DNA from: Alphaproteobacteria bacterium
GTDB lineage: Bacteria; Pseudomonadota; Alphaproteobacteria; SHVZ01
NCBI GenBank assembly: GCA_009694025.1
Contig: SHVZ01000038.1
Span: 1-33,886, forward strand
Length of the DNA stretch: 33,886 nt
Reading direction: 5' to 3'
The position numbers and the translations under genes were made by a program. Shown here in pieces: positions 20,344-30,050 of the stretch (the first letter of the stretch is position 1; the number at the start of each line of letters is the position of its first letter). The notes beneath the pieces were generated by a model. The model saw only the letters and a list, made by a program, of their open reading frames with translations. It searched no databases and had not been told where the DNA came from.

Positions 20344-21624
20344 ATGACAGCACTGGCAAGGGCAGCGCCCTTCTACGGCTGGCGGGTCGTTGCCGCCGCC
20401 TTCGTCCTCGCCGTTTTCGGGTGGGGGGTGGGCTTCTATGGTCCGCCCGTCTACCTCCACGCGGTAAGGGAGGCGAGAGGCTGGCCGGTGTCCCTCGTAT
20501 CGGCGGCGGTCACCGTGCACTTCCTGATCGGCGCGGTCGTCATCGCCAACCTGCCGGGCCTCTATCGCCGCTTCGGGCTCCCCGCCGTGACCAAAGCGGG
20601 GGCGATCGCCCTGGCGCTCGGCGTCTTCGGCTGGGCCACCGCCGTGACGCCCTGCCAGCTGTTCGGAGCGACGCTGCTGAGCGGCGCCGGCTGGGTCGCC
20701 ATGGGCGCCGCCGCCGTCAACGCGATCGTCTCGCCCTGGTTCATCCGCACGCGACCGGCGGCGCTTGCGATGGCCTACAATGGCGCGAGCATCGGCGGCG
20801 TCCTCTTTTCGCCGCTATGGGTCGCCGCCATCGGCTGGCTCGGCTTCCCCGTCGCGGCCGCGGCGATCGGCGCGATCATGGCCGCGGCCGTCTGGATCCT
20901 GGCCGAAAGCGTGTTCTCGCGTACGCCGCAGCAGATGGGCCTGACGCCCGACGGAGACGCGCCCGGGGCGTCGCTGGCTTCCGTGACGTCACCGAAGGCG
21001 CAGCCTCTCCCGGGGCCGCAGCTCTGGCGCAGCGCGAAGTTCGTGACGCTGTCGGCCGGCATGGCTCTCGGCCTGTTCGCACAGATCGGCCTGATCGCCC
21101 ACCTTTTCTCGCTTCTGGTTCCCGTGCTCGGCGCGCAGCAGGCCGGCCTGGCGACGGGACTCGCCACCGCCGCGGCCATCGGCGGACGCACGTTGGTCGG
21201 CTGGCTGATGCCGGCGGGCGCGGACCGGCGGCTGGTCGCCTGCACGAGCTACGCCGTCCAGATCGCCGGCTCGATCGCCTTTATCCTCGCGGCCGGCGGG
21301 AACGTTCCGCTGCTTCTCCTCGGCGTCGTCCTGTTCGGCGCCGGCATCGGCAATGCGACCTCCCTGCCGCCACTCATTGCCCAGGTCGAGTTCGTGAAGG
21401 AGGACGTGCCACGCGTCGTCGCCCTCATCGTCGCCGTCGGGCAGGCAACATATGCGTTCGCCCCGGCCGCCTTCGGCCTGATCCGGGACCTCGTCCCGGC
21501 GTCGGCGGATCCCGGGGCCGCGCCGATCGTCTTCGCCACGGCGGCTGTCGTCCAGGGCCTTGCTATCTGCGTCTTTCTCGCGGGCCGGCGCACCCGACCG
21601 GCTATTTCGTCCGCGCGATGGTGA
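20344..21624 (+). CDS. MFS transporter
   Basis: Inner-membrane major facilitator superfamily permease, 426 aa with about 12 hydrophobic helices and a polar central loop near residues 200-230. It begins MTALARAAPFYGWRVVAAAF; the FYGWRVVAAAF opening is common in MFS_1 carriers related to monocarboxylate/oxalate-type and uncharacterised exporters. Between helices 2 and 3 lies GLYRRFGLPAVTKAG, a variant of the MFS loop motif. The ATG at 20344 lacks a normal ribosome site because a palindrome occupies that position. Divergent from the ArsR-type regulator, its likely controller. Its 3' end overlaps the convergent cyclase gene by 23 bp. Substrate unknown. Confidence 0.88.
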   Translation: MTALARAAPFYGWRVVAAAFVLAVFGWGVGFYGPPVYLHAVREARGWPVSLVSAAVTVHFLIGAVVIANLPGLYRRFGLPAVTKAGAIALALGVFGWATAVTPCQLFGATLLSGAGWVAMGAAAVNAIVSPWFIRTRPAALAMAYNGASIGGVLFSPLWVAAIGWLGFPVAAAAIGAIMAAAVWILAESVFSRTPQQMGLTPDGDAPGASLASVTSPKAQPLPGPQLWRSAKFVTLSAGMALGLFAQIGLIAHLFSLLVPVLGAQQAGLATGLATAAAIGGRTLVGWLMPAGADRRLVACTSYAVQIAGSIAFILAAGGNVPLLLLGVVLFGAGIGNATSLPPLIAQVEFVKEDVPRVVALIVAVGQATYAFAPAAFGLIRDLVPASADPGAAPIVFATAAVVQGLAICVFLAGRRTRPAISSARW

Positions 21625-23812
21625 CCCCGTCCCAGTCCGCGCCCGGCGGGTCCCGCCGGTAGTCGGCGATGCGTTGGGTATAGAGATCCCAGAGAGCGGA
21701 GAGGTCCGGGGCCATTGTCCGTGCCCGCTCGATGGCCGATGCTGCCCGGTCCCACTGCTGAGCGCGGTAGGCGGCCAGCAATTCGTCCTGCACCGCCGAC
21801 AGCGCCTGATGCGCCTCGTCCGGTTCCGCGGCACGGAGGGCATGGATGCGCACCGCTTCGAGCTTGCCCTTGACCGCGATCAGGTCGAGCTCGAGATAGG
21901 CGAAGCCCGGTGCGGCCGCCTTCGTCGTCTCGCCGACGACGATATCGACGCCATAGGTCTTGGACTGGCCTTCGAGGCGAGAGGCGAGATTGACCGCATC
22001 GCCCAGCACCGAATAGTCGAAGCGCTGGTCCGAGCCCATGTTGCCGACGACGGCGTTGCCGGAATTGAGGCCGATGCCGATGGCAAGCGCGAGGAAGCGC
22101 CGCCCTTCCTTCTCGGCCTCGGCGGCGAGCCGGCCGTTGAGCGCGACCAGCTCGGCCCGCATGACGAGCGCTGCCCGGCAGGCGTTGGCAGAGTGGTCAC
22201 GGTCGTCGAGTGGCGCGTTCCAGAACGCCATGATGCAGTCGCCCATGTACTTGTCGATGGTGCCGCGCTTGGCCAGGATCGCGTCGGTCATCGGCGTCAG
22301 GAAGCGGTTGATCAGCCGGGTGAGCGCCTGCGGGTCGCTCTTGAAGCTCTCGGAGATCGTGGTAAAGCCGCGCACGTCGCAGAAAAGGAAGGTCATGTCA
22401 CGGGTCTCGCCGCCGAGCTTGAGCTGGCTCGGATCGGAGGCGAGACGCTCGACCATCGCGGGTGCGAGGTACTGGGAGAAGGCGGTCCGGACCTCGCGCT
22501 TCTCGCGCTCGGTGGCGAGGAAGTTGACGAGGGTCGCCGCGATGTAGACCGCGAGCGTGGCGGCGACCGGCGTCGCCGGGTCGATGAGGAAGCCGAAGTA
22601 GCGGAAGACCTGCCAGGACGCGGCGACCGCAAGGACCGCAGCGGCCGCGCCCACCACCGCAGACCAGGCGGCGCCGATCCGGCGCAGGGCGAGCACGAGG
22701 GCGAGGCCGAGCGCCGCCACGTAGAGAAGCTCGGCGCCCTCGGCCCAGTCCGGCCGGCCGAGGAAGCGGCCGGAGAGGATCTGCTCGACCGCCTGGGCAT
22801 GGGCCTCGATGCCGGGCATGGCCGGGTCGAGCGGACTCGGCCTGAGGTCCTTGAGGCCGGCGGCGCTGGTTCCGATGAGGACGATCGTGCCGTCGAAGGC
22901 ATCGTTGCCGGCCTCGCCGTTGAGGACTCGCCACGCCGATACCGTGCGATCGCGACTCGGCGTGGCGTAGTGGAGCCAGAACTGGCCGTGCGCATCCGTC
23001 GGCACGACGAACTCGCCGACCTTGATCGAGTCGATACCGGTCTCGGCACCGAAGCTGGCGGCGGCCTGTGCGCCCGACGCACGGATGATCGAGGTGCTGG
23101 CGCGCTGAGCGACCCTCAGCGTCTCGGTCACAAGCGAGGCATAGAGGCGGTCCCCGAGACGGAGCACCAGCGGCACCCGGCGGAGGATGCCGTCGCGGTC
23201 GGGAACGCTGTTAATGCTGCCGTTGCCACGCGCCGCGCGCTCGAGGACGGGAAGCGAGCCGACCGCGCCGGAGAAGCCCGGAATGAACGGCGCCGGATCG
23301 ATGCCGGCATGGGCGAAGGTGCCCTTGCGCACGGGGACGCGGCCGTTGGCCTCCGTCGTCAGCACGAACCCGGTGATGGACGGCGAGGCCGCCAGGGCGT
23401 CGGCGAGCGCAAGGTCGTGATCGGGAAGCCGCGCCAGCAGCGGCTTCAGCCCCTCCGTGTGCGGCCAGAGCTTGAGGACCTCCGCCGGCGAGGTGCGGTC
23501 GGGCTCGGGAAAGATGACGTCGAGGCCGATCGCGACGGCGCCAGCTTTGGTCAGGTGGGAGATCAGGTCGGCGAGAAGGGTCCGAGGCCACGGCCATTGG
23601 CCGATCCGCGACAGGCTCTCGTCGTCGATATCGACGACCCGGACGGCCGAGGACTCGGCCTCGCGCGGCGCCAGACGCTGATAGGTGTCGAACACCCTGA
23701 GCCGCACCTCCTCCAGCACGCCGCCGGGATCGAGGATACGAAGGGCTAGAACCAGCACCAGGACCGCGCCGGGCACCGCGAGCGATGCATACCGGCGCAA
23801 GCCCCGCATCAT
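21602..23812 (-). CDS. CHASE2-domain class III adenylate cyclase
   Basis: Membrane cyclase predicted to make cAMP in response to an extracytoplasmic cue. 736 aa. An N-terminal membrane helix (8-26), then a periplasmic CHASE2 domain about 30-355 (VRVVDIDDESLSRIGQWPWPR and GLDVIFPEPDR are typical), three membrane helices about 361-435, and a catalytic domain 470-660. Metal-binding D479 (FLFCDVRGF) and D525 (YMGDCIMAFW); K521 with S601 suggests adenine rather than guanine; N608 and R612 stabilise the transition state, so all catalytic residues are present. The tail has a TPR-like helix pair. Its ATG touches the stop of the fecR-domain gene (TAG then ATGATG), implying coupled translation. Confidence 0.93.
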   Translation of the reverse strand: MMRGLRRYASLAVPGAVLVLVLALRILDPGGVLEEVRLRVFDTYQRLAPREAESSAVRVVDIDDESLSRIGQWPWPRTLLADLISHLTKAGAVAIGLDVIFPEPDRTSPAEVLKLWPHTEGLKPLLARLPDHDLALADALAASPSITGFVLTTEANGRVPVRKGTFAHAGIDPAPFIPGFSGAVGSLPVLERAARGNGSINSVPDRDGILRRVPLVLRLGDRLYASLVTETLRVAQRASTSIIRASGAQAAASFGAETGIDSIKVGEFVVPTDAHGQFWLHYATPSRDRTVSAWRVLNGEAGNDAFDGTIVLIGTSAAGLKDLRPSPLDPAMPGIEAHAQAVEQILSGRFLGRPDWAEGAELLYVAALGLALVLALRRIGAAWSAVVGAAAAVLAVAASWQVFRYFGFLIDPATPVAATLAVYIAATLVNFLATEREKREVRTAFSQYLAPAMVERLASDPSQLKLGGETRDMTFLFCDVRGFTTISESFKSDPQALTRLINRFLTPMTDAILAKRGTIDKYMGDCIMAFWNAPLDDRDHSANACRAALVMRAELVALNGRLAAEAEKEGRRFLALAIGIGLNSGNAVVGNMGSDQRFDYSVLGDAVNLASRLEGQSKTYGVDIVVGETTKAAAPGFAYLELDLIAVKGKLEAVRIHALRAAEPDEAHQALSAVQDELLAAYRAQQWDRAASAIERARTMAPDLSALWDLYTQRIADYRRDPPGADWDGVTIARTK

Positions 23813-26050
23813 CTACGGCTTCTTGCCGACGAAGATCCCGGAGGCGGCGTATTTTACCGCAGTGGTGCCGGGGGTATTGGAGACGTTGAACTGGCCGCCG
23901 GTCTCCTTCACCGGATCGCCGGCGCCGGAGAAGAACGAGCCCTGGGCCCTGCCGGTCAAGCCCGACCGCCCGGTGACGTCGAGGGTCGCCCCGTAGTCTC
24001 GGCCGTTCGTCGAGGAGATCGCCCCGGACAGGGTCATGCCATCGAAGTTGCTGATGGCCATGTTGCCCTGGCGGTTGGCGAAGTTGAACTGGGCGGAGAA
24101 ATTACCGGCGGCCAGATAGCGTGCCGTATCGTTGACCACCGTTCCCACCGCATGGCCGGAATAGCTGGCGCTGCCGGTCGTCGGCATGTCGGCCGGCGAC
24201 AGCATGGGGCCGGCGACCCAGTTGCCCATGTGCAGGTGATTGGTCTGAGTGACATTGTCTCGGCTCGGGGCGACGCCGACACCGCCCCACCAACCCCATT
24301 GCGCGAACTCGCACTGGCAAGCCTGGACACCGCCCGGCAGGCTGCCGCCGGCAAGGCCGCTCGATACCATGTAAAGCCGGGTCGAGTCGGCATTGACCGT
24401 GCGCCCGGATTCCGTGATCGTCACCGGCGCGACAGACTCGACGGCTGCAAGGCGGGAGCGATCGACATAGGTGCCGCGGCCCGGATCGGCGCCGAAGTTG
24501 AAGGCGATGCTCCCGGGGCCCTGTTGCGCGCTCTCCGATGTCATCTTGAACGTCGCGGCCAAGCGGCCGGTCGCCGCATCGGTGCCGACCGAGACGTTGT
24601 CCGGCCCTGCGATCTGGCCGTTCTGCCCCGCAAGCAGCGACGTCGTCGGATCGATCCGTCCGTCGGCACGCACTGAATCCGCGAAGGCGGTCGCGTAGCC
24701 GTTGAGCATTTGCGTCTCCCGGGCACCGACGGCCGGCGTCGAGGTCACTCGTTGGCCGGTCTGACGGTAGCCATAGGAGGCGTTGCCGCCGCCGAGCTGA
24801 GAGTCGGCGCCACTGCCGTTCTGCACGAAGCCGTCGGGCATACGTCCGGCGGCGAAACTGGTGATCGCTCCGGTTCCGTTCAAGGTCGAATTCGACGCTA
24901 TGCTGGTGGTGGTACGATCGGCGTTGGTACGCGAGGTTCCGCGGGTCGAGGCCAGCATTCCGGCGCCGTCGCCACCCTCTCCGGTGGTTACGACGACGAC
25001 CGAGCGCTGCCCGGTGCCCTGCCCGTCGATCGCGACCGACACCTGGACGCTCTTGACCGTGCCTGTCGGGCCGCTGGAGACGCCGTAGAACGGACTCGAC
25101 GAGCCGTTGCCGGCGCCGCCGGTCGCCTGCCCGCGTACGGTCGGAAGGCCGGAGCCGAGCGAGGGGTCCGGATCCAGCCGATAAGCCACGATCGCTCCCG
25201 CCGGCAGCGCCGCGTTAGTGAGGGCGTTCCTCTGGACCTGCTGCGTGGCGTCGCGGTTCGGCGGCGGGCCAGCCGGGCCCGGGCCCTGACCCTGAGGCCG
25301 CACGCCCGCCGGCGGCGGGGGCGGTTGGCCCGGCCCCTGCACCGGCATGCGGGCCGCGACCTGTGTTCCCGTCGGCTGCTGCGAAGCCCCGCCGCTCGCA
25401 TCGGCTCGTCCGTTCAACTGCTCGAGGTTCTGCTTGATCTGATCGGCGCTGGCCTTGGCCGGCGCCGTCGGTGCGGTGGTGCGGCTCTGGACCGTCGTGG
25501 TGAACCCGGGCCGCGCGATCCGCTCGACCGCGCCGGTCGCGGAGGTCACCGTCATCTCCGTGCCGAAGAGGAAGGTCGCGCGGGTGGCGCCGCTCACCGC
25601 ATCGATCGAGACGATTCCGATCCCGCCGCGGATGCCGATGGTCGCCGTCGGCGTGGTGATGGTGACCGGCTGGTTCTTGCTGAGCTTGCCGCCGACGAAG
25701 CGCAGCACGCCTTTCGCCGCGGTCGCCGCCAGCTTGCCGGTGCCGCTCGCCGGATCGAAGATGAACTCGTCGAGGACCAGGTCGGAGTCCGGTCCGACGG
25801 TGAAGGCCGAGCCGTCGAGGAACAGCATCTGCGCCTGGCCGCGCGCATCCGTCACCAGCCGCTCGCGATGGAAGACGTCGTTGCCGATCTGAAGCACTCG
25901 GCCAGCGGCCGCAGGGGGCGTTCCCGTCAGCTGCTGATTGACCGCGGCGGCGACGCCGACCTTGGTCTGAGTCGCGGGCGCCTGGGCCAACGCAGGCCCC
26001 GCCAATGCGGTCGAGGCGAGCAGAGCGAAGACGAGCGAGCTACGAAGCAT
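23813..26050 (-). CDS. Exported FecR-domain protein with C-terminal TbpB-like barrel
   Basis: 745 aa. Sec signal peptide 1-22 (cut after ALA, no lipobox). FecR domain about 45-150 (VLQIGNDVFHRERLVTDARG, DGSAFTVGPDSDLVLDEFIF, TITTPTATIGIRGG). A low-complexity linker rich in Pro, Gly and Gln follows at 195-275, then a repetitive Ser/Thr/Gly middle with beta-strand character. A Cys/Trp cluster, CQCEFAQWGWWGG, is at 578-590. Residues about 620-745 read as a TbpB-type beta-barrel: YSGHAVGTVVN, FSAQFNFANRQGNMAISNFDG, GSFFSGAGDPVKETGGQFNVS, and AASGIFVGKKP at the end. That last domain is what Slam-type translocators recognise. The ATG at 26050 has AGGGAGG. No TonB receptor or ECF sigma factor is nearby, so classic FecIRA signalling is unlikely. 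Confidence 0.82.
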   Translation of the reverse strand: MLRSSLVFALLASTALAGPALAQAPATQTKVGVAAAVNQQLTGTPPAAAGRVLQIGNDVFHRERLVTDARGQAQMLFLDGSAFTVGPDSDLVLDEFIFDPASGTGKLAATAAKGVLRFVGGKLSKNQPVTITTPTATIGIRGGIGIVSIDAVSGATRATFLFGTEMTVTSATGAVERIARPGFTTTVQSRTTAPTAPAKASADQIKQNLEQLNGRADASGGASQQPTGTQVAARMPVQGPGQPPPPPAGVRPQGQGPGPAGPPPNRDATQQVQRNALTNAALPAGAIVAYRLDPDPSLGSGLPTVRGQATGGAGNGSSSPFYGVSSGPTGTVKSVQVSVAIDGQGTGQRSVVVVTTGEGGDGAGMLASTRGTSRTNADRTTTSIASNSTLNGTGAITSFAAGRMPDGFVQNGSGADSQLGGGNASYGYRQTGQRVTSTPAVGARETQMLNGYATAFADSVRADGRIDPTTSLLAGQNGQIAGPDNVSVGTDAATGRLAATFKMTSESAQQGPGSIAFNFGADPGRGTYVDRSRLAAVESVAPVTITESGRTVNADSTRLYMVSSGLAGGSLPGGVQACQCEFAQWGWWGGVGVAPSRDNVTQTNHLHMGNWVAGPMLSPADMPTTGSASYSGHAVGTVVNDTARYLAAGNFSAQFNFANRQGNMAISNFDGMTLSGAISSTNGRDYGATLDVTGRSGLTGRAQGSFFSGAGDPVKETGGQFNVSNTPGTTAVKYAASGIFVGKKP

Positions 26051-26075
26051 GGCAACCTCCCTACACCCCGATTGC

Positions 26076-26081
26076 AGGCTA
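26076..26081 (-). promoter_or_regulatory. Candidate -10 element of the fecR-domain/cyclase operon
   Basis: TAGCCT on the minus strand keeps the T-A-n-n-n-T core of a -10 hexamer. A start site near 26069 would place the nearer CRP-type palindrome at about -41.5, the class II activator position, and the farther one at about -64.5. Inference from spacing only. Confidence 0.35.
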
Positions 26082-26102
26082 GTCGGGATGTGCGCCCGGT
26101 GA

Positions 26103-26118
26103 AGTGACAGGGCTCACA
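26103..26118. promoter_or_regulatory. CRP-type site, proximal
   Basis: AGTGA-CAGGGC-TCACA: nine of ten positions match TGTGA-N6-TCACA. Its centre is 23 bp from that of the perfect distal site, about two helical turns, placing both on nearly the same DNA face. It lies 53 bp upstream of the fecR-domain gene start. Confidence 0.55.
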
Positions 26119-26125
26119 ACGACTC

Positions 26126-26141
26126 TGTGACGACGCTCACA
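26126..26141. promoter_or_regulatory. CRP-type site, distal (perfect consensus)
   Basis: TGTGA-CGACGC-TCACA matches the CRP consensus TGTGA-N6-TCACA at all ten defined positions. At this base composition fewer than 0.01 such sites are expected by chance in a window this size. It sits just past the stop of the Slam-like gene and upstream of the operon that encodes an adenylate cyclase. Confidence 0.65.
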
Positions 26142-26142
26142 C

Positions 26143-27954
26143 TTAGAAGGTATATCCGAGGCCGATTGTGCCGCTCGTGTTGGTATACGTGAAGTTCGCG
26201 ATCGCGGATCTCACCCATTGCTGCTGGAGCTGCAGGCTGATCGACCACCTGCCGAGAACCCGGACGGAGAGCCCGGCCCCGACGGACCATTCGCGATCGT
26301 ATCGGGTCGTGGCGGGATCGATGGTCGTATCGACGCCGTCGTAGTAGCGCAGCGTCCTGCCGCCGCTGAGGCTCGCGACCCAGGGCTGCTCGGTGATGGC
26401 GAACGGTGCCTTGAACTGGCGGTAATAGGCGAGATCGAACGCGTATTCGAGATAGCGTTCGGACTCGGCCCGGGTGTTGGCGAAGGTAACCCCGCCGCCG
26501 GCCCGCACCTGGTCGGTGGCGCCGAGCGCGTAGCGGAGCCCAAGCCGGCCACCATGTTCCCAGCCATCTTTATCTGCCGCCGTCGGACGCGCCTCGGAAA
26601 CATGGAAGCGGCGGAACCGCGACTTGAGGTCGGCGTCGAGGCCGAAGGCCGCGGTGACCGGGAGGTCGACCGCGACGCCGCCGCCGAAGCTGACGAAGTA
26701 GCGGGCGTCGTCCAGCGTCACCAGGCTGCCGAGCGCATAAGGCCGGAGGTTCCAGCCGTCCTCGCCGCCGAAGCGAAGGCGCGGTCCGAGGTCGACCTGA
26801 GCCACCTGCAGGTCGAGCGAGGAGATGTCGAGCTGGCGGGTGCCGTAGAGCTGCAGCCCGGTCTCGATGGTGTCGCGGTCCTGGGTGCCGAGGTCATAGG
26901 CGAAGGTCAATCCGGCCTGGACGTAGCCGTTCCAGTCGGAACGCTGCAGCGAGGTCGAGTCCAGGGTCGCATCCAGGCCGAACAGCTTGACTACGCCGGC
27001 GCTGTTGGCGGCATTGGCGTTCGATTGCCAGCGCACGCCGGTCTGGACCGAGACGCCGAAGGTGGTGGCCGAGAGGCGCTTGTCGATCTCCGCCATGTTC
27101 GTCTGGGTCGAGGCCCGGACATCGGCAGGCAGGTCCGGCGCCCGCGCCACGTCCTCGAAGTAACCACGGGCGACCTGATACGAGCCCAGCCGCATGTAGA
27201 GGAGACCGAGCTCGTACCGGATGCGCGGCAGGTCCGGGTTGAAGATGAGCAGCCGCTCGAAGGCCGAGACCGCGCCTTCAAGGTCGCCCGCCGCCATGGC
27301 GAGCTCGGCGAAGCGGAAGGTGAGATCGAGATTGGCCGGGTCGGCCATCATCGCCCGGAAGGCGCTGTCATAGTCGGTCGGAAGCGGGCCCGCAGGACGG
27401 GGGGCCGCTTGCGCCACCTGGGGCGCAGCCGGCGGCACCGTCGACGTCGCGGTCCCACTGCTGGACGCAAGCTGCCGCCAGCCGGCGCCCGGTCCGGCCA
27501 GCGCCCAGGCGCCCTTGCCCGGGACCCGGGTCGTGCGGCTCGAATCCTCGGTCATGTCCACGACCAGGCGATAGAGCGGCCGCCCGTCGTCCTCAGCGAT
27601 GGGAAAGGCCCGAACCGACTCAGGCGCTTTGGCGAGACGGAGCAAGACGACGGTTTCGTCGGCGGAGTCCGGGTCGATGGCGACTGCCTGGATCAGGCCC
27701 GCCCGGTCGGGCCTGCGCCCACCGAATTGGCGCGGATGTCTGCCCTGGTTGGGCACGACGATGGCGAGCGAGCGAGCGTCGGGCGCGAGCAGCACCTGGT
27801 AGGGCGCCTCCTCGACCAGATCGAGAACCGCCCGGGTCATTCCGGGGTGAACGCCGAGGCGGAGGCCCGGAATCTGCGCGGACGCTGGCATCGACAGACC
27901 CGCGGCAACCGCCAGAAATCCGATCGCGCGAAGCCGCCACCCGTCACCGATCAC
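26143..27954 (-). CDS. Slam-like outer-membrane protein: AMIN-like, TPR and beta-barrel domains
   Basis: 603 aa from a GTG at 27954 preceded by a strong GGAGGGGGAG; an ATG at 28002 is in frame but has no ribosome site. Signal peptide 1-26 (cut after ASA). Residues about 31-135 look like an AMIN domain (TRAVLDLVEEAPYQVLL, LYRLVVDMTED). A Pro/Ala linker follows, then TPR-type helices about 195-295 (FRFAELAMAAGDLEGAVSAF, IRYELGLLYMRLGSYQVARG). Residues 298-603 form an outer-membrane barrel of alternating strands that ends in phenylalanine (GLGYTF); VSVQTGVRWQSNANAA resembles the first strand of DUF560/SlipAM barrels. TPR plus a 300-residue barrel is the Slam (type XI secretion) layout; the AMIN-like part is extra. 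It likely moves the downstream barrel-bearing FecR protein across the outer membrane (inference). Confidence 0.75.
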   Translation of the reverse strand: MIGDGWRLRAIGFLAVAAGLSMPASAQIPGLRLGVHPGMTRAVLDLVEEAPYQVLLAPDARSLAIVVPNQGRHPRQFGGRRPDRAGLIQAVAIDPDSADETVVLLRLAKAPESVRAFPIAEDDGRPLYRLVVDMTEDSSRTTRVPGKGAWALAGPGAGWRQLASSSGTATSTVPPAAPQVAQAAPRPAGPLPTDYDSAFRAMMADPANLDLTFRFAELAMAAGDLEGAVSAFERLLIFNPDLPRIRYELGLLYMRLGSYQVARGYFEDVARAPDLPADVRASTQTNMAEIDKRLSATTFGVSVQTGVRWQSNANAANSAGVVKLFGLDATLDSTSLQRSDWNGYVQAGLTFAYDLGTQDRDTIETGLQLYGTRQLDISSLDLQVAQVDLGPRLRFGGEDGWNLRPYALGSLVTLDDARYFVSFGGGVAVDLPVTAAFGLDADLKSRFRRFHVSEARPTAADKDGWEHGGRLGLRYALGATDQVRAGGGVTFANTRAESERYLEYAFDLAYYRQFKAPFAITEQPWVASLSGGRTLRYYDGVDTTIDPATTRYDREWSVGAGLSVRVLGRWSISLQLQQQWVRSAIANFTYTNTSGTIGLGYTF

Positions 27955-27988: not shown

Positions 27989-28032
27989 CCTAAACCCTTC
28001 ATATACCAGAGAGAGCGGGTTCCTTCTACGGC

Positions 28033-29031
28033 TCAGGCCGCAGCCTGGGCGGATTCCGGAGGGACCAGGTGGCAGGCGGTCATGTGCCCCGCCGGTGCCA
28101 CCTGAATCAGGGGCGGCTCGACCTTCCGGCACACATCCTGGGCGAGCGGGCAGCGGGTGTGGAAGCGGCAGCCCGTCGGCGGATTGATCGAGCTCGGCAC
28201 GTCGCCCTTGAGGACAACCCGCTCCCGCCGGCCCCTCGCCTTCGGCACGGGGATCGCCGAGAGCAGCGCCTGGGTATAGGGGTGCCACGGCTGGGTGTAG
28301 AGCTGCCGCTTCGGCGCGATCTCGACGATCTTGCCGAGATACATCACCGCCACCCGGTCGGAGATGTGCCGGACCACGCCGAGGTCATGGGAAATGAAGA
28401 GGTAGGTGAGCTTGAACTCGGCCTGCAGGTCCTGCAGCAGGTTGACGACCTGGGCCTGGATCGACACATCGAGGGCGGAGACCGGCTCGTCGCAGATGAT
28501 CAGCTTGGGATTGAGCGCGAGCGCACGCGCGATGCCGATCCGCTGACGCTGGCCGCCGGAGAATTCGTGCGGGTAGCGGTCGGCGTGGAACGACGCGAGA
28601 CCGACCAGGCCCAGGAGCTCGATGACCCGCTTCTTTACCGCTGCCCCGAACCTCTCGCCGTGGATCATCATCGGCTCGGCGACGATCTCCTCGACGCTGA
28701 GGCGCGGATTGAGGCTGCCAAACGGGTCCTGGAAGATGATCTGCATCTCGCGCCGGAGCGGCCGCATCTCCGCCGGCGGTAGCCCGACGATGTCGCGACC
28801 GTTGATCAGGATCCGTCCCTGGGTCGGCTCGATCAGCCGAAGGACGAGGCGTCCGGTAGTGGTCTTGCCGCAGCCGGACTCGCCGACGAGGCCCAACGTT
28901 TCGCCGGCGTCGATGGTGAAGGAGACGTCCTCGACCGCCCTGACCGCGCCGACGCGGCGGGGAACGATGAACCCCTTGAAGATCGGGAAATGCTTGGTGA
29001 GGCCCTGGACCTCGAGCAGCGGGGTCCTCAT
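28033..29031 (-). CDS. Peptide ABC transporter ATPase, DppF/OppF-like
   Basis: Second ATPase of a dipeptide/oligopeptide-type importer, on the cytoplasmic face. 332 aa. Walker [11 protein letters not shown]-loop [12 protein letters not shown], signature [15 protein letters not shown], Walker [14 protein letters not shown]-loop ISHD. The C-terminal oligo_HPY region has the clustered cysteines typical of these ATPases ([16 protein letters not shown]). The ATG at 29031 overlaps the preceding ATPase gene stop as ATGA. Last gene of the transporter operon; the Slam-like gene begins 78 bp downstream on the same strand. Confidence 0.93.
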
Positions 29032-30050
29032 CTCACCCCCGCCATAGCCGGCGGCGCCGCGGCGCCGCGGCGATAGCCGGTGTGCCGGATGCAGGCGGCG
29101 AGATGGCTCTGCGCCACCGGAACCAGCGGCGGCGGGCCAGCCGCGCATTCGTCGCGCGCATAGGTGCAGCGCGGCTGGAACCGGCAGCCCGGCGGCAGCT
29201 CATGCGGGTTCGGCAGCGTTCCGGGGATGGCGGTCAGGCGAAGCACGTCCGCCTCGATGTCCGGGATGCTGGAGAGCAGTCCCTCGGTATAGGGGTGGGA
29301 GGGCCGATCGAAAACCCCCTCGACGCTGGCATGCTCGACGGTGCGGCCGGCATACATGACCAGGACCCGATCGGCGAACTCCGCCACCACCCCCAGATTG
29401 TGGGTGATGATGATGACGGCCATTCGGAATTCCTCCTGTAGCTGCCTCAGGAGATCGAGGATCTGCGCCTGGATGGTGACGTCGAGTGCGGTCGTCGGCT
29501 CGTCGGCGAGCAGCAGCTTCGGACCGCAGGAAAGCGCCATCGCGATCATCACCCGCTGGCGCATGCCGCCGGAGAGCTGATGCGGATAGTCCTCGAGCCG
29601 CCGCTCAGGCGACGAGATGCCGACCTTGTGCAACATCTCGATGGCACGGCCCCTCGCCGCCGCCATGCCGACGCGCTCGTGCCAGCGAACCGCCTCGGTG
29701 AGCTGATCGCCGATGGTGAACACGGGATTGAGCGAGGTCATCGGCTCCTGGAAGATCATCGAGATGGCGCCGCCGCGGATCTTCCGCATGTCGGTCCGCG
29801 ACTTCTTCAGAAGATCTGAGTCCTCGAACAGAATCTCGCCGGCGACGACGCGGCCCGGCGGCGTCGGCAGCAGGCCCATGATCGAGAGAGCGGTAACGCT
29901 CTTGCCGGATCCGGACTCGCCGACGATGCCAAGAACCTCGCCGGCGCGAAGATCGAAGGAAAGATCGTCGACCGCCGTCGCCGGCCCCTGGTCGGTGCCG
30001 AACTCGATCCTGAGCCCGCGCACGGACAACAGCGGAGGTGTCGAAGCCAT
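29028..30050 (-). CDS. Peptide ABC transporter ATPase, DppD/OppD-like
   Basis: First ATPase of the importer. 340 aa. Walker [11 protein letters not shown]-loop [20 protein letters not shown], signature [15 protein letters not shown], Walker [14 protein letters not shown]-loop ITHN. C-terminal oligo_HPY region with [16 protein letters not shown]. The ATG at 30050 is 8 bp past the permease stop; a TTG at 30062 in frame is less likely. Coupled to the second ATPase by ATGA. Confidence 0.93.

Follow-up and report, generated by a model that had tools for sequence, protein, structure and literature searches.

This analysis concerns three neighbouring genes on the minus strand of contig SHVZ01000038.1 (assembly GCA_009694025.1), an alphaproteobacterial stretch of 33,886 nucleotides that is referred to here as the window. 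The first gene, at 26143..27954, was assigned to a Slam-like outer-membrane protein, related to the SlipAM proteins of the type 11 secretion system (T11SS), from its open reading frame (ORF), Pfam matches to tetratricopeptide repeats (TPRs) and OMP_b-brl, a profile match and its clade in a tree. The second, at 23813..26050, encodes a FecR domain protein with a predicted TbpB-like C-terminal barrel (ORF, Pfam and NCBIfam matches, alignments), and the third, at 21602..23812, a CHASE2 class III adenylate cyclase (Pfam matches, catalytic residues). The Slam-like and FecR genes are 92 bases apart, and the FecR stop codon directly abuts the cyclase start (...CCG TAG ATG ATG CGG...); ORFs and junction sequence agree with a sequence-only reading of this DNA, which had described an adjacent same-strand trio with its last two members joined TAG/ATGATG. 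The Slam-like gene could begin at GTG 27954 or at a longer ATG at 28002, and given that the starts of its relatives coincide with the GTG (MIGD...), the former is preferred.

Domain make-up of the three proteins

The Slam-like protein has a predicted layout of signal peptide, genus-specific N-terminal region, TPRs and C-terminal barrel. Its Pfam matches were to TPRs and to OMP_b-brl (E 8.6e-6), and TPR proteins were the only matches in a single-sequence search of the Protein Data Bank (PDB). The periplasmic TPR domain, at residues ~210-300 (27103..27375, minus strand; residues numbered from ATG 28002), was delimited with Pfam TPR_9/TPR_19 and with the only usable part of an AlphaFold2 (AF2) model, where the predicted local distance difference test (pLDDT) gave 70-80; the model as a whole, with four close sequences in its alignment, averaged 44.7. 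The putative outer-membrane beta-barrel spans residues 306-619 (26146..27087, minus strand), where the model places about 13-14 strands in series at pLDDT below 50. It aligns with the SlipAM barrel and ends in a Phe that is invariant among the aligned relatives. A reading of this barrel as a generic porin was considered and dropped. The N-terminal region of ~120 residues (27523..27885, minus strand) is weakly AMIN-like and occurs in some members of the genus only: in the window protein it had no relevant Pfam or PDB match, with no Pfam match to AMIN, while one relative (L033) gave a sub-threshold AMIN-like match (E 0.003) and three others (L036, L049, L057) lack the region. From the AMIN-like/TPR/barrel architecture first proposed, the TPRs and the barrel have stood, and the AMIN-like part is weakly indicated by the match in that one relative.

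The relationship to Slam was examined with an alignment and profile of 14 FecR-linked relatives of the Slam-like protein. PF04575 was matched by five of the 14 (best E 5e-7) and TPR_Slam, weakly, by 10 members, and a comparison by hhalign of the FecR-linked barrel profile with the SlipAM proteins of PF04575 gave a probability of 100% and an E of 3e-46 over 373 columns, covering TPRs and barrel. A FecR-linked relative from outside the Alphaproteobacteria, in the genome here called G489, scored 86 bits against PF04575, where the cut-off is 22, and its gene lies beside FecR and FecR-TbpB genes. Maximum-likelihood analysis placed the FecR-linked proteins and those closest to them in a single group (62 rows, support 100) that excludes the 11 canonical Slam proteins, which come with free TbpB-barrel cargo. 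Judging from the profile, the PF04575 matches and the tree, the family is clearly a distant homologue of SlipAM, as the sequence-only reading had supposed, although strict Pfam membership of the window protein is not established.

The FecR protein begins with a signal of the Sec type (MLRSSLVFALLASTALAGPALAQ), in which no lipobox Cys was seen when the sequence was judged by eye. Its FecR domain occupies residues ~50-194 (25469..25903, minus strand), as defined by PF04773 (E 4e-6, 27.6 bits vs a cut-off of 24) and by a hidden Markov model over 45+ relatives. The TbpB-like barrel follows at residues ~577-744 (23819..24322, minus strand). In the single sequence, the tail gave weak Pfam matches (FHBP_C 0.001, TbpB_B_D 0.035), the last 170 residues matched an NCBIfam Slam-dependent lipoprotein model under its cut-off (6e-7), and a PDB search with the C-terminal part returned a weak antifreeze match only. 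A profile of 17 barrel sequences matched the structures of NHBA (1.9e-8), TbpB (2.3e-6), fHbp (9e-6) and LbpB (4e-5), and hhalign related the FecR protein family to T11SS cargo barrels (E 3.5e-12). By distant homology, the C-terminus is an eight-stranded barrel of the TbpB/fHbp type; the barrel first suggested for this protein was recovered with the family profile (NHBA, TbpB) and weakly in the single sequence. The AF2 model of the C-terminal part was unusable (mean pLDDT 31.6, four close sequences in the alignment), and profile comparison, which took the place of fold comparison, contradicted neither the SlipAM nor the TbpB assignment. At the entry of the barrel, alignments revealed a CxCxFxxWGxWGG motif (24281..24319, minus strand). 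In the form CxCxFxxWGxW it marks most of the barrels fused to FecR and was absent from every free T11SS cargo barrel observed in this analysis, and a conserved Cys pair with WG(W/F)W is found at the entry of FecR-linked TbpB-like barrels. Canonical FecI-FecR-FecA signalling was also considered and dropped, since an export signal replaces the anti-sigma part and the operon partners are a TPR-barrel protein and a cyclase; no FecI partner occurs among the operon genes, the rest of the genome not having been searched for one.

The cyclase matched CHASE2 (PF05226, 6e-61) and Guanylate_cyc (PF00211, 5.5e-16). Its CHASE2 sensor, at residues 18-371 (22700..23761, minus strand), would be extracytoplasmic, between a transmembrane segment at 8-34 and hydrophobic segments at 357-434, and the catalytic domain covers residues 441-659 (21836..22492, minus strand). 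The metal residues D479 and D525 are retained, as are the transition-state residues N608/R612, and the base-selection residues are K521 and S601, the latter aligned with a Thr in CyaB of P. aeruginosa. The initial description of a CHASE2 class III cyclase with all catalytic residues is thus confirmed.

Upstream of the Slam-like gene and on the same strand, 28033-29148 encodes an oligopeptide/dipeptide ABC transporter ATPase, the end of which lies ~30 bases from the Slam-like ATG or ~80 bases from the GTG; read-through is possible.

Conservation and linkage in other genomes

In a sample of 289 alphaproteobacterial genomes, the Slam-like family profile matched 70, PF04575 members with free TbpB-barrel cargo included, and a Slam-like gene was present in 52. 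Among 72 Slam-like loci, 46 had a FecR gene within 3 kb and 28 a CHASE2 cyclase within 6 kb; the trio was found in 26 and a FecR-TbpB fusion in 18. Canonical Slam loci had neither FecR (0 of 11) nor a cyclase (0 of 11) nearby. The survey therefore did not contradict the neighbourhood described from the window, and the trio is kept within the genus and in distant families; a scan of genome contigs found three close relatives. Gene order varies between loci, and in some of them the cyclase is encoded on the other strand. Carriers of the trio include the culturable strains Shinella sp. H4-D48 and Paracoccus aminophilus JCM 7686.

We detected FecR-type TbpB barrels in 23 genomes, and all 23 also hold a Slam-like gene, linked or unlinked, compared with 52 of 289 overall (hypergeometric p 6e-20, kinship uncorrected). 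Unlinked FecR-TbpB genes whose neighbours were listed stand alone. Genome G284 has six dispersed stand-alone FecR-TbpB genes (L171-L176) and one orphan Slam-like match (L110), as expected for a single translocon with several cargoes; the search for Slam-like genes scored the five best candidates per genome and may have missed a paralogue. In G489 (L200), which belongs to another class of the phylum, both of the Slam-like genes have FecR genes as neighbours, one of these being a FecR-TbpB fusion, and no cyclase is nearby. Given that genomes with FecR-TbpB always hold a Slam-like gene, even an unlinked one, a translocon-cargo relation between the two proteins is well supported by gene content. 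The TbpB barrel appears and disappears several times across the tree, and since early branches and the cargo of the outgroup have it, the ancestor may have had it too, with later losses.

FecR was also found beside CHASE2 in other settings. On another contig of the window genome (C20, L072:3016-6120), a second FecR gene (227 aa) adjoins a CHASE2-PAS histidine kinase, and in genome G047 (L055:5589-12379) an RTX/Calx-beta/VWA protein, which has FecR at its N-terminus and weakly matches a BapA_N prefix, is divergent from a CHASE2 cyclase. A set in Ensifer consists of TPR, FecR and CHASE2 cyclase genes, with no barrel gene. Because the pairing recurs in the window-genome kinase, in G047, in NsrA of S. 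meliloti, in Campylobacterota and in Burkholderia, FecR looks like a regular partner of CHASE2, and the evidence points to a direct relation between them.

Other genes were seen next to these sets. On Paracoccus aminophilus pAMI5 (L167:5542-7368), a cyclic-nucleotide-binding patatin-like phospholipase, a candidate effector of cyclic AMP (cAMP), is divergent from the trio. NHLP-type bacteriocin export genes adjoin the trio in Shinella (L166:14989-19176), and in Ensifer sp. PDNC004 (L170:771-7788) NHLP-type export genes adjoin the barrel-less TPR-FecR-CHASE2-cyclase set and a cyclic-nucleotide-binding protein.

A possible relay across the envelope

We propose, with middling confidence, that the products of the three genes act as a relay spanning the envelope, composed of a Slam-like translocon, a FecR-TbpB cargo and a CHASE2 cyclase as the read-out. 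The Slam-like protein, as a translocon related to the T11SS, would use the TbpB-like C-terminal barrel as its hold on the FecR protein and would deliver this barrel to the outer membrane or across it. The inner-membrane CHASE2 would read the N-terminal FecR domain while that domain is periplasmic, and the cAMP made by the cyclase would reflect whether FecR is held, engaged, ligand-bound or exported. At the level of sequence, the genomic data establish which domains the proteins contain, how their families are related, that the linkage is conserved and that FecR-TbpB is coupled to Slam-like genes even when unlinked, and signalling from a FecR-plus-barrel surface protein to a CHASE2 cyclase is supported by analogy with NsrA-CyaK. 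We infer transport itself, the final location of FecR, the sign of the cAMP effect and, considering the recurrent pairing and NsrA, direct contact between FecR and CHASE2. More tentatively, the set may act as a secretion-coupled second-messenger switch, in which the CHASE2 cyclase gauges whether a T11SS cargo is held, engaged or exported, and cAMP conveys the condition of the outer membrane or of an extracellular ligand.

Several observations weigh against such a relay. The window Slam-like protein alone gave no match to PF04575 at E<1, and neither barrel is confirmed by the structure models, whose quality is too low. In 28 of 48 FecR-linked Slam-like loci, a TbpB barrel could not be recognised on the FecR protein; therefore, the link between FecR and the Slam-like protein is independent of the TbpB barrel, and secretion of FecR by the Slam-like route cannot be a general rule. 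No CHASE2 cyclase lies near many of the FecR-TbpB genes, among them every satellite examined in G284 and G165, and NsrA matched the Slam-like family profile in its TPRs only, with no detectable barrel relation.

With more than half of the FecR partners lacking the TbpB barrel, a receptor relay without secretion is a serious though less probable rival, in which the Slam-like barrel would be a ligand-binding outer-membrane receptor, the TPRs and the FecR protein would be periplasmic couplers to CHASE2, in the manner of a split NsrA, and the TbpB-like barrel would be a periplasmic ligand-binding or contact domain. NsrA-CyaK operates in this way, with FecR, TPRs and barrel in one chain (PMC7529298); many FecR partners without a cargo barrel yet retain their Slam-like neighbour, and FecR occurs beside CHASE2 with or without a barrel gene, as in Ensifer, the window-genome kinase and Burkholderia (PMC5192318). 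However, FecR-TbpB was found only where a Slam-like gene is present, in unlinked and multicopy form as well, which would not be expected of a dedicated one-to-one receptor, and eight-stranded barrels of the TbpB type typify T11SS cargo (PMC12282271, PMC8406197).

It is less probable that the locus is a secretion unit with a co-located regulator, the FecR-TbpB protein being a conventional effector at the surface, such as an adhesin or a ligand binder, that the cyclase does not sense. Stand-alone FecR-TbpB genes without a cyclase would agree with this, as would the variable gene order, the cyclases on the opposite strand and the usual variability of the N-terminal effector domains of T11SS cargo (PMC12282271), but the recurrence of FecR beside CHASE2 in otherwise unlike architectures (NsrA, the RTX-type protein of L055, the kinase pairs and the Campylobacterota cluster of PMC9239204) argues against it. 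That the genes are chance neighbours or carry misread domains is hardly credible and was rejected: single sequences match SlipAM and TbpB weakly or not at all, but many families and one further class share the linkage, and the profiles match known families.

If the relay is correct, it bridges type 11 secretion and FecR/CHASE2 signalling, which are unconnected in the literature searched. To our knowledge, most members of the T11SS family have no known cargo, and we know of no account of what CHASE2 senses. The relay predicts FecR-TbpB as a new cargo class for an unstudied Slam clade, which roughly one in five of the 289 alphaproteobacterial genomes sampled carries. A further suggestion is that the FecR domain serves as a common input of CHASE2, tethered differently in each lineage, by a barrel in the same chain, by a T11SS cargo barrel or by an RTX-type protein. 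These bacteria may, in this manner, let the export of proteins or sensing at the surface feed into signalling inside the cell.

Comparison with known systems

The initial statement that no described system combines these activities was not sustained, given that NsrA/CyaK (PMC7529298) and the Campylobacterota cluster (PMC9239204) come close. In S. meliloti, NsrA is needed for signal-induced cAMP (PMC7529298, PMC13001267) and has an outer-membrane barrel at about residues 600-1200 (PMC7529298); its barrel and function are taken from these papers, and its FecR domain (66-160) and TPRs were assigned here from sequence. Its gene lies directly upstream of cyaK, which encodes a CHASE2 cyclase. NsrA-CyaK (and CyaD1/D2) is thus like the window set in joining FecR, TPRs and an outer-membrane barrel beside a CHASE2 adenylate cyclase, but NsrA is a single polypeptide, whereas the window divides FecR and the TPR-barrel between two genes, and the NsrA barrel is larger and comes with no TbpB-like barrel. 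Its relay from the outside to cAMP is experimental (PMC7529298, PMC13001267).

In Campylobacterota, CHASE2 cyclases cluster with a FecR outer-membrane protein, a TPR protein and a phosphodiesterase (PMC9239204); the phosphodiesterase sets this cluster apart from the window set, and its TPR protein was compared by its published description only. Burkholderia has FecR/CHASE2 histidine kinase operons in which, as in the window, an exported FecR-domain protein adjoins a CHASE2 sensor, but with a LysM anchor, a histidine kinase output and no barrel protein (PMC5192318).

With T11SS/Slam, the window set shares periplasmic TPRs, a putative barrel of ~14 predicted strands and a C-terminal TbpB-like barrel on a partner encoded by a neighbouring gene. 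The eight-stranded TbpB-type barrel is a common feature of T11SS cargo (PMC12282271, PMC8406197), the N-terminus of which is usually a variable effector domain (PMC12282271), and the unlipidated Sec signal of the window FecR protein resembles that of the soluble cargo class (PMC8406197). FecR has no mention in these two T11SS papers (PMC12282271, PMC8406197), and in the open-licence literature we found no paper that joins Slam, T11SS or DUF560 to FecR or CHASE2. The window Slam-like family differs from T11SS in forming a separate clade that is mostly under the Pfam cut-off, and the set as a whole differs in the FecR N-terminus of its putative cargo, in its linkage to a CHASE2 cyclase and in its many FecR partners without a barrel. 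What appears unusual in the window version is a FecR domain attached to a T11SS cargo barrel, together with a Slam-like translocon.

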